In this document: piece after piece, positions 22,311 through 28,498 of the stretch
How the letters are laid out: the number at the start of each line of letters is the position of its first letter
How positions within the stretch are numbered: the stretch's first letter is position 1
Origin: an uncultured Flavobacteriaceae bacterium
GTDB taxonomy: Bacteria; Bacteroidota; Bacteroidia; Flavobacteriales; Flavobacteriaceae
Reading direction: 5' to 3'
Length of the DNA: 64,000 nucleotides
Assembly: GCA_947502635.1 (NCBI GenBank)
Contig: CANNAN010000002.1
Location: forward strand, 434,001 to 498,000
Notes under the pieces: model-generated
Told to the model about the DNA's origin: nothing
What the model saw: only the letters and a program-made list of their open reading frames with translations
Databases searched by the model: none
Position numbers and translations under genes: made by a program

Positions 22311-23129
22311 TTAATCACAACCACCGCATCCTCCACAACTACTACATCCATTATCGCAAGAAGAACAACCTGATGCGTCAAATTCGGAATCAAAAGAATC
22401 TAGAGTATCATTAAAACTATCAAAGTATGACTCAAATGTATAATCATCTTCAAAAAAGTCTATATACAACCACCAATCACTATCGGGATCATAGGTTTTG
22501 TTATGTAAAACTTTCTGTTGATTTAGTAATTCCTTATCAATTTTTTTTAGAAGTTGAAAATCTAAATTTTTAAGTAAAAAGATGTTTCCTCCAATACTCA
22601 ATAATAGTTCTAATCCTTTTTTCTTATCATTATGTAGAAGATTATCAATGCTTTTGTCAATATCATATAAATAATTTGATATTTCTTTTTTTAAATTAAT
22701 TCCTTTATCTGTTAATTTATTTAGCCGAAATAGATTTAAAAAAAATGTTTGTTTAAAGTATTGGTTTATTTCTCGATTGCTTCTTGTTAATTTTTTGTAA
22801 CCCCAAGCTTTGTTCGAAGTGTCATAAGCTATTTTTATAAAATGCTTAAATAATATTTGGATTGATTGATTTTTTATAAATGGACTTAAATAAATTAACT
22901 CGTGATTTTTTGGTTTGTATCTACTGAAATTTTTACCTGCAACTACGTAAGTATAGGTTCTAATGTATTTATCTCTAGGATGAGATTTTTTACTGATTTC
23001 TTTAATTTCAATTACTTTTTTTAGAAGCAAATCCATAAAAGTATATTTCATTAAATCTTTTAATTGTACAGAAGTACAATCCTTAATAAGCATTGTTTCT
23101 GCTGGCGTTATTCTAGAGAGTATTTTCAT
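22311..23129 (-). CDS. Protein with Cys/Gly-rich C-terminal tail, TIGR04222-like layout
   Basis: A 272-residue protein. The N-terminal part (ITPAETMLIKDCTSVQLKDLMKYTFMDLL and on) looks like tandem helical units with no membrane helix that I can see. An acidic aromatic linker with repeated DSF/ESYFDSF words leads to a tail with eight cysteines among Gly and Ser (GCSSCDNGCSSCGGCGGCD, last 19 residues). This layout resembles TIGR04222 proteins, which end in low-complexity Gly/Cys tails; the match is by eye. It shares one base with the upstream GRDP-like gene, so the two are co-transcribed and probably act together. Confidence 0.65.
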   Translation of the reverse strand: MKILSRITPAETMLIKDCTSVQLKDLMKYTFMDLLLKKVIEIKEISKKSHPRDKYIRTYTYVVAGKNFSRYKPKNHELIYLSPFIKNQSIQILFKHFIKIAYDTSNKAWGYKKLTRSNREINQYFKQTFFLNLFRLNKLTDKGINLKKEISNYLYDIDKSIDNLLHNDKKKGLELLLSIGGNIFLLKNLDFQLLKKIDKELLNQQKVLHNKTYDPDSDWWLYIDFFEDDYTFESYFDSFNDTLDSFDSEFDASGCSSCDNGCSSCGGCGGCD

Positions 23130-26895: not shown

Positions 26896-27351
26896 ATGAA
26901 AAATATACCGCTTTCTGTCCGATTTGGACTCCTTACAAGTGCTATGCTAATAGTATATTTTTTAATTTTAGCATTGTTTAATAAACATACTAATCCAACA
27001 TTTAGTTTTTTCAATGCTATAATTACAGCTTTTGGTATTTGTGAAGCCGTGCGTTTAAAAAAACTTGAAAACCCAGAAGCCTTTGCTTATGGAGAAGGAT
27101 TTAAAACAGGAATTGTTACTGGCTTTACAGCGACATTGGTATTTACTGCCTTTTTCTTGTTTTATGCTACAGAAATTAATCCTGCTTTTTTACCAGAATT
27201 ACTTAAAACAATTAGAGGTGATTTCAACGTAGATATTGGTTTAGTGACTTTTGTTGTTGCTGTTATGGGCTTAGCAACAACAGTAGTAGCCGTATTGACT
27301 GTTATGCAGTTTTTTAAAAAAACCAGAAATATCACTCAAAACCACCTTTAA
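26896..27351 (+). CDS. DUF4199-like membrane protein
   Basis: A 151-residue membrane protein with four likely helices: LTSAMLIVYFLILALF, TFSFFNAIITAFGI, GIVTGFTATLVFTAFFLFYA and VTFVVAVMGLATTVVAVLTV. The FAYGEGFKTGIVTGF stretch between helices two and three is typical of DUF4199 proteins in Bacteroidota. Function unknown. Confidence 0.75.
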   Translation: MKNIPLSVRFGLLTSAMLIVYFLILALFNKHTNPTFSFFNAIITAFGICEAVRLKKLENPEAFAYGEGFKTGIVTGFTATLVFTAFFLFYATEINPAFLPELLKTIRGDFNVDIGLVTFVVAVMGLATTVVAVLTVMQFFKKTRNITQNHL

Positions 27352-27362
27352 TTGTTTGTAGT

Positions 27363-27461
27363 TTAATGATTCAAAGTATGTGAAGCAGCTGCTGGCAATT
27401 CTTTAATAAATTCGCTTATCTTTTTTGTGCTTACTTTGAAATGTTTTTTAATTTTTTTCAT
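27363..27461 (-). CDS. Micro-gene A: 32-residue conserved peptide
   Basis: ATG at 27461 to TAA at 27363. The peptide has a Lys-rich N-terminus (MKKIKKHFKV), a TKKISEFIKEL amphipathic middle, then AAASHTLNH at the end. Its tandem partner at 27604-27693 encodes a clear homologue. Shared residues are KKH.KV.TKKI.EF.KEL..AAS..LNH, and most differences are conservative (Phe/Leu, Ile/Leu, Ser/Asn, His/Tyr), the pattern expected when the peptide is under selection. The upstream segments also match: ATCGTTCTA, then AAAAATGCTATTAT directly before the ATG. No Cys, no signal peptide. Function unknown. Confidence 0.65.
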   Translation of the reverse strand: MKKIKKHFKVSTKKISEFIKELPAAASHTLNH

Positions 27462-27603
27462 GATAATAGCATTTTTGTTTTTTGAGTGTAGAACGATTGA
27501 TAACATAAAATTTCTTTAATTTTTTAGCTGATAGAATAGTCTTTATCAAGTTTTTTAAAACCAATAACAAAAACTATCCAAAAATCAGGAAAACGTTTAT
27601 AGT

Positions 27604-27693
27604 TTAATGATTTAAGGCGTATGAAGCAGCTGTGGTTAATTCTTTAAGAAATTCGTTAATCTTTTTCGTTTTTACTTTGAGATGTTTTTTCAT
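27604..27693 (-). CDS. Micro-gene B: 29-residue conserved peptide, tandem copy
   Basis: ATG at 27693 to TAA at 27604. Homologue of micro-gene A, lacking three N-terminal residues (MKKHLKVKTKKINEF at the start, AASYALNH at the end). Spacing between the two frames is 142 bases, and similarity extends through the 5' flank (ATCGTTCTA and AAAAATGCTATTAT) and into the stop region (AATCATTAA). The repeat unit is about 240 bases. Both lie between the DUF4199 gene and the rplU promoter. The short length means protein evidence is needed; the conserved frame argues for translation. Confidence 0.65.
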   Translation of the reverse strand: MKKHLKVKTKKINEFLKELTTAASYALNH

Positions 27694-27855
27694 AATAATA
27701 GCATTTTTACATTTTTGTTATAGAACGATCTAAACCAAAAAATCCCTCCAAAGTTTTTAAGAAATTTTATTTTATGTTTTTGAATAATTACTATATTAGA
27801 AGACTTTTTAATAGAAAAACGAATAATAAATAATCATTCAAAATCAACAAAAACG

Positions 27856-27886
27856 TTTGCAGTTTAATTAATTAGCAGTATATTTG
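27856..27886 (+). promoter_or_regulatory. Promoter of rplU-rpmA
   Basis: TTTG at 27856-27859, 19 bases, then TATATTTG at 27879-27886: an excellent match to the Bacteroidota TTTG / TAnnTTTG promoter. Transcription should start near 27893, giving a leader of about 35 bases before the rplU start. Confidence 0.82.
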
Positions 27887-27928: not shown

Positions 27929-28498
27929 ATGTACGCAATTGTAGAGATAGCAGGGCATCAATTTAAAGTTGAAAAAGACCAAAAAGTTTTTGTTAACCGT
28001 TTACAAACAGAAGAAGGTAAGAAAGTTTCTTTCGATAACGTACTTCTAGTAGCAGATGGTGACAAAGTAACTGTAGGCGCCCCCGCTATAGACGGAGCTC
28101 AAGTAGGAGCAAAAGTCTTAAAACACCTTAAAGGTGATAAAGTTATAGTTTTTAAGAAGAAAAGACGTAAAGGTTACCGTGTTAAAAATGGTCACCGTCA
28201 ATCTTTAACAGAAATTGTAATTGAAAGTATTGCTGCTTCGGGAGCTAAAAAAGCTGCCCCGGCAAAAGCAACTAAAAAAGCAGAGCCAAAAGCAGAAGTT
28301 GAGGCACCAAAAGCAAAACCAGCTGCTAAAAAGGCAGAAGCTGCTGCACCAAAAGAAAAGCCAGCTGCTAAAAAGGCAGAAGCTACTCAAGATTTAAGCA
28401 AACTTACTGTTGCTGAATTAAAAGAAATGGCAAAAGCTAAAGGAGTTGAAGGAATTTCTTCTATGAAGAAAGCCGATTTAATTGCTGCTTTAAGTTAA
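27929..28498 (+). CDS. rplU: 50S ribosomal protein L21 with long C-terminal extension
   Basis: Residues 1 to about 103 are a normal L21 (YAIVEIAGHQFKVEKDQKVFV, KVLKHLKGDKVIVFKKKRRKGYRVKNGHRQ). The protein is 189 residues where the usual length is about 103. The extra 85 residues are an Ala/Lys/Pro/Glu-rich linker with two near-identical KPAAKKAEA repeats, then a small helical domain (LSKLTVAELKEMAKAKG...MKKADLIAAL) of the Rho-N/SAP-like kind that often binds nucleic acid. rpmA follows 26 bases later as usual. Confidence 0.96.
   Translation: MYAIVEIAGHQFKVEKDQKVFVNRLQTEEGKKVSFDNVLLVADGDKVTVGAPAIDGAQVGAKVLKHLKGDKVIVFKKKRRKGYRVKNGHRQSLTEIVIESIAASGAKKAAPAKATKKAEPKAEVEAPKAKPAAKKAEAAAPKEKPAAKKAEATQDLSKLTVAELKEMAKAKGVEGISSMKKADLIAALS

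Follow-up and report, generated by a model that had tools for sequence, protein, structure and literature searches.

A lineage-restricted family of predicted helical micro-proteins, often present in several copies per genome, in Flavobacteriaceae

SpoVM-type micro-proteins of Bacillus are amphipathic and bind the membrane surface; they have ~26-32 residues, are basic, form a single amphipathic helix and are encoded by a stand-alone gene. Phenol-soluble modulins and leaderless bacteriocins, aureocin A70 among them, are short leaderless amphipathic helices encoded by tandem genes. Small proteins overlooked by annotation are further known from ribosomes, where bS22 and bL38 are unannotated components in Flavobacterium and Borrelia (PMC10618245).

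The micro-proteins described here resemble the SpoVM type in length, charge, predicted helix and stand-alone genes but have another sequence and belong to another phylum, and the SpoVM type is a single-copy sporulation gene product not known to have such a conserved C-terminal tail. With phenol-soluble modulins and leaderless bacteriocins they share the short leaderless helix and the tandem genes; however, their conserved part is the C-terminal tail, and their neighbours vary. Like bS22 and bL38 they come from the same phylum and escape annotation, whereas their distribution is patchy and multi-copy, and their profile has no significant match among PDB chain sequences (best E 0.15 among 13 chains up to E 10). 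Ribosomal protein bL38, the first candidate considered, was dropped after this PDB sequence search and in view of PMC10618245. The comparisons below establish, at the level of sequence, a real, lineage-restricted, multi-copy micro-protein family under codon-level constraint.

The starting point was a 64,000-nucleotide stretch of the genome of an uncultured Flavobacteriaceae bacterium, hereafter the window. An earlier note on this DNA had reported two short minus-strand frames 142 bases apart, with the common flanks ATCGTTCTA and AAAAATGCTATTAT before the start codon; both frames and both flanks were found. The genome has two micro-gene copies, both in the window, with a DUF4199 gene on one side and the divergent rplU-rpmA pair (PF00829, PF01016) on the other:

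26896-27351, plus strand: DUF4199 gene (PF13858), convergent neighbour
27363-27461, minus strand: micro-gene copy 2, 32 aa when read from the inner ATG, MKKIKKHFKVSTKKISEFIKELPAAASHTLNH
27543-27603, no strand assigned: spacer separating the two micro-genes, apparently a decayed copy of the DUF4199 3'-end region 27302-27362
27604-27693, minus strand: micro-gene copy 1, 29 aa, MKKHLKVKTKKINEFLKELTTAASYALNH
27829-27874, no strand assigned: possible third, partial repeat copy, 46 nt, 72% to the reference copy; AT-rich, may be chance
27929-28498, plus strand: rplU, ribosomal protein L21, divergent neighbour

The longest ORF of copy 2 starts at 27506 and encodes 47 aa; the family alignment and an A-rich stretch both speak for position 27461, an inner ATG, as its probable start. 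The possible partial copy 27829-27874 lies directly before rplU, in the apparent rplU promoter region. The rplU product L21 has a long Lys/Ala-rich C-terminal extension with a Rho_N domain at its end (PF07498, residues 155-188, E 1.3e-9).

The repeat extends beyond the frames: its unit of ~241 bp takes in the final bases of the DUF4199 gene as well as the micro-gene and the region upstream of it. As breakpoint evidence, the match of the spacer 27543-27603 to the DUF4199 3' end points to a segmental tandem duplication. The two units are identical in 74 of 99 columns in the ORF, 42 of 65 columns on the 3' side and 51 of 81 columns in the 75 bases upstream, compared with averages of 47-50% and maxima of 56, 57 and 59% in 200 shuffles per region; the upstream similarity exceeds the shuffle control by a narrow margin only. 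By these alignments the two micro-genes are a diverged tandem duplication in which the frame is better kept than the flanks.

Copy 1 alone, searched against 299 Flavobacteriaceae genomes, identified homologues in G019 (same genus as the window organism), G072 and G051 with E 4e-6 to 1e-4, all situated at the same rplU site. A first profile, A1, was built from ten seeds, namely the two window copies, these three orthologues and five weaker matches picked by eye; the second, A2, has 34 rows, the window copies included. At E ≤0.01, A2 matches 24 of the 299 sampled Flavobacteriaceae genomes (own genome counted), in 22 of 236 genera, and 23 of the 24 have the tail, the exception being G275. Both window peptides match the whole-length family profile (copy 1, E 4.6e-12; copy 2, E 8.8e-13; these values are not independent, as both copies are among the A1 seeds and in A2).

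Across the phylum, sampled with 395 genomes, there were six matches, of which four are Flavobacteriaceae (own genome counted). The remaining pair belongs to a different family of the class, is without the tail and so was not taken as homologous. A scan of ~85,000 species, one genome each, for the tail pattern [AG][KRN]ASSYAIH returned 46 stretches, 41 of them relatives, labelled as Flavobacteriaceae genera or bins, Bacteroidetes or Bacteroidia bins, and one Cytophagaceae MAG. With the exception of this MAG, no member outside Flavobacteriaceae was confirmed in these searches. Named carriers include Aureisphaera galaxeae, Gilvibacter sediminis, Altibacter lentus and Aureitalea sp. From 82 candidates (E ≤0.5), 76 distinct members were kept after six rows had been dropped at a cut-off of 1e-6: L147 (a true member by its tail), L086 (the G248 remnant described below), L119 (a doubtful frame), L117 (a match from another family) and two unrelated ones. 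Membership was defined by an ORF of 28-40 codons with a tail like A-[SAC]-S-Y-A-[IL]-[HNQR]-[RH]. Both window copies fall within this definition; the tail AASYALNH fits in full, and AASHTLNH has H and T in place of Y and A.

Individual genomes often have two to five stand-alone copies. Tandem arrays comprise three copies in G383, which has one more distant copy, and four in G597, at a spacing of ~320 and 230 bp, respectively; G177 has five copies, and pairs 4.0-8.4 kb apart were found in G156, G198, G205 and G118. Two broken copies were observed: in G248, from the same genus as the window organism, only the last part of the frame remains beside rplU and the start codon is missing, and in G001 the frame has an internal stop. 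By the genome comparison, the family has repeatedly been duplicated and lost, and some lineages no longer have it. The earlier note had named a lack of homologous frames in related genomes, or broken frames in other copies, as what would speak against a gene; intact homologues are numerous, and there are the two broken copies too, of which the one in G248 belongs to a second species within the genus.

Conservation at the codon level agrees with the earlier claim that the amino acids are kept better than the DNA. The window pair differs by 7 changes in 16.5 synonymous sites and 9 in 67.5 non-synonymous sites (Fisher p ~0.01). Pooled over 224 pairs of equal length, with proteins at least 60% identical and DNA less than 97% identical, pS is 0.67, pN 0.15 and pN/pS 0.22, a description and not a test, as the pairs overlap and picking by protein identity lowers pN; this dN/dS-type comparison, which the note had proposed, indicates codon-level constraint. 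Single close pairs agree, for example L130/L126 with 8 synonymous changes and 1 non-synonymous change; an opposite trend is seen in two of the G597 tandem copies (1 versus 3) and in L071/L122 (0 versus 2).

All 76 members start with ATG and end with TAA (45), TAG (30) or TGA (1). At least three A in positions -13 to -10 were found in 65 of 76 members, compared with 146 of 439 control starts, which are those of ORFs of at least 150 codons in the same fetched loci. In F. johnsoniae, Baez et al. 2019 (PMC6847099) report A to be overrepresented at -14 to -11 and identify A at -12, -13, -6 and -3 as a positive determinant. The upstream sequences of the members thus bear what is, by its base composition, an A-rich initiation signature of the Flavobacterium type. 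The phylum of the window organism uses no Shine-Dalgarno pairing. A Shine-Dalgarno-like GGAGGG (27744-27749, minus strand) precedes the start of copy 1 by 50 nt; it is kept in G072, and G019 has GAGGG.

That there is no gene at all, and that a repeat merely carries frames open by chance, would agree with the repetition of the flanks and with the two broken copies; codon-level constraint, intact homologues in many genera and the initiation signature make this reading scarcely tenable. The same three observations, and the lack of a database family detailed below, uphold the earlier interpretation as a duplicated, translated micro-protein family without a name.

Neighbouring genes, taken as mechanical ORFs of at least 80 aa, were compared for 33 copies, the G248 remnant counted (35 copies had been listed, and two at contig ends without a downstream gene were excluded). 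Of the 33 copies, 22, among them both in the window, have a downstream gene on the opposite strand, and 23 have an upstream gene on the opposite strand; no neighbour family recurs in more than 5 of the 29 stretches compared. Opposite-strand neighbours and the scarcity of recurring ones favour an independent transcription unit over a cis-acting leader. A leader or arrest peptide for the downstream gene would suit a conservation that peaks directly before the stop codon, and it is nevertheless highly improbable given these orientations and downstream genes that are not common to the loci.

The members are 28-40 aa long, 51 of 76 having 32 aa. Counted from the C-terminus of the 76 members, positions -25, -21, -18, -14 and -11 are hydrophobic in 89, 74, 99, 100 and 92%, respectively. 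The spacing of this stripe is 4-3-4-3 (heptad), the positions between are mostly polar, -15 is mixed, and the helical moment peaks at 100 degrees. Trp occupies two stripe positions, -25 in 31 and -18 in 35 of 76 members. The net charge averages +4.9 (range 1 to 11). Mean Eisenberg hydrophobicity is -0.11 and the moment 0.41, which falls short of the surface-seeking zone of the plot; the lipid-binding factor D is ≥1.34 in the best 18-residue window of 59 of 76 members. An AlphaFold2 model of copy 2 consists of one helix, residues 3-30, of moderate confidence (mean pLDDT 75, pTM 0.30). From the stripe, the charge and this model we infer that each member would form one basic amphipathic alpha-helix.

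The helix is followed by a tail with the consensus ASSYAIHR. Because 33 of the 76 members came from the tail scan, the tail was recounted on the other 43, which had been found by whole-length profiles that contain the tail: S(-6) occurs in 40 of 43, Y(-5) in 38, A(-4) in 40, and the last residue is R, H or K in all 43. The exact octapeptide ASSYAIHR is present in only 16 of these 43. A tail so conserved predicts a conserved partner, and a family as simple as this one lends itself to synthetic-peptide work and gene removal.

Among the regulatory, membrane-active and chaperone-like functions that the earlier note had left side by side, the data favour a putative surface-acting or partner-docking helix. 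Our preferred reading, with a probability of roughly 0.35, is a regulated surface-acting helix whose tail would dock on a conserved partner. The stripe (-25, -21, -18, -14, -11) would rest on a surface, for which the cytoplasmic membrane's inner face is the likeliest candidate, and the conserved free C-terminal tail (A-S-S-Y-A-I-H-R or a near variant) would dock on a conserved partner protein; the peptide would tune this partner, with the dose set by copy number. No candidate partner protein for the tail was found. A more specific version, in which ~32-residue helices, tandem and scattered, many with alternative-sigma-type promoters, act as dose-controlled micro-regulators whose tail switches one conserved envelope or membrane protein of Flavobacteriaceae, seems doubtful to us.

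Against a membrane location stand the low mean hydrophobicity and the 4-3-4-3 stripe, which suits a coiled coil equally well. Both would speak for a cytosolic coiled-coil adaptor, in which the stripe self-associates or packs against a helix from a soluble partner, the binding site being completed by the tail, and no membrane is involved; weak profile matches to designed coiled coils in PDB (E 0.6-2.9) point the same way, but they are not significant, and the strongly basic character and Trp at two stripe positions in ~40-45% of members look interfacial. We regard the adaptor as a tentative second choice, on the unlikely side.

Cationic, Trp/Lys-rich amphipathic helices, tandem arrays of two to four genes and a patchy distribution are also what could be expected from a leaderless secreted membrane-active peptide, similar to a leaderless bacteriocin or phenol-soluble modulin, that is exported unprocessed and hits other cells. 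A single match to the NCBIfam PSM epsilon model among 34 members (E 0.059) is a point in favour, though it falls short of a model assignment. For membrane lysis, however, a C-terminal tail as the most conserved part would be unexpected, and no recurring neighbour fit as an exporter or immunity gene was seen among the neighbours, which were compared by similarity and are mostly without annotation. Secretion is thus rather unlikely.

Most type I toxins are hydrophobic peptides that span the membrane. A toxin of this type with an antisense RNA antitoxin would account for tiny, tandem, patchily distributed genes with a birth-and-death pattern; yet the members are charged amphipathic helices (mean +4.9) rather than hydrophobic transmembrane ones, and synonymous sites diverge freely (pS 0.67), with no sign of antisense-RNA constraint inside the ORF. 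This possibility is very unlikely. A ribosome- or RNA-binding micro-protein, for instance a ribosome factor for times of stress, is a little less so, though still quite improbable: the peptides are Lys-rich, the window clade adjoins rplU, and other copies adjoin what are, by their sequences, presumably cold-shock and RNase R-like genes; on the other side stand the patchy, multi-copy occurrence, the clear hydrophobic stripe and the absence of a PDB sequence match, although Bacteroidota ribosomes have been solved. The probability left over by all these readings belongs to options outside this list.

The word regulated in the preferred reading derives from two upstream elements, which were spotted by eye in the same sequences before they were counted. 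In the interval -110 to -22, the ECF-like element [ACG]AAC[CT]-N15-17-[GA]TCNA occurs in 16 of 75 members and 3 of 439 controls (0.67 expected by first-order resampling), and the -24/-12-like element TGGCAY-N5-TTG in 13 of 75 members and none of 439 controls (0.03 expected); as the elements were picked out in this way and the members are related, significance is overstated and the controls are the better guide. In wider windows the numbers are 17 and 18 of 76, respectively. Six members (L126, L127, L128, L130, L134 and L135) have both, with the ECF-like one nearer to the start. The first element resembles the ECF-type promoter consensus of AAC at -35 and a GTC-like -10 at 15-17 bp.

The second is labelled only as -24/-12-like because, in the 18 of 76 upstream regions with TGGCAY-N5-TTG, the -12 part is never TTGC as in TGGCAC-N5-TTGC, our criterion for sigma-54, and because the canonical site is nearly absent: all 10 genomes tested have rpoN, and in four carriers of it TTGGCACR-N4-TTGC has one place in G156 and none in G198, G206 and G000. 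Sigma-54 targets in these four genomes are few, or depart from the textbook site. Across 7 genomes the form TGGCAYRNTTRTTG was counted at 7 sites and the reversed control pattern at 4; 3 of those 7 sites precede a micro-gene (G156, G198, G206).

The ECF-like and -24/-12-like elements before many copies outside the window clade make cue-dependent production probable, and the peptide would there be made on an envelope or environmental cue; their enrichment in other genera offers a handle on the switching cue. Against a cue-driven model, the window clade has neither element upstream, and its own element shows no regulon. This element is found before both copies:

27489-27515, minus strand: diverged copy of the AGGG..TTT-N10-TCGTTCTA element (2 mismatches), upstream of copy 2
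27721-27747, minus strand: candidate promoter element AGGG..TTT-N10-TCGTTCTA, upstream of copy 1

Similar sequences of the window-clade form AGGG-N15-TCGTT[CA]TA precede the orthologues in G019 and G072 and, more weakly, in G051. In its own genome the element shows no enrichment (42 sites versus 45 for the control, ≤2 mismatches).

Genes this short are mostly missed by annotation. Comparison with Pfam and NCBIfam gave nothing above the curated cut-offs; the best match was that of TIGR01889 to the 47-aa long form of copy 2 (E 0.0053; 17 bits, where the cut-off is 62.6). None of 41 members matches PADLOC defence families, and the two Rfam matches are both far under the gathering scores. In PHROGs, one of 34 members, the divergent one in L085, matches phrog_37960 (E 2.9e-5; 20 members were scanned singly); because none of the other members matches, this is taken as a probable likeness of helix composition. 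A phage or plasmid origin was considered and rejected: viral contigs, scanned with a single pattern, gave 8 matches and no relatives, the 29-aa window copy as a single query had no phage match, and another member as a single query matched only a Streptomyces plasmid at E 4. Four tail strings are absent from the full text of 5.39 million open papers, and among the titles and abstracts listed for small proteins of these bacteria none is concerned with this family. It is apparently undescribed, with a clear signature of tail, helix and upstream elements and with members in named strains. Elsewhere in the window, at 22311-23129 on the minus strand, a 272-aa ORF has the Cys/Gly-rich tail GCSSCDNGCSSCGGCGGCD.
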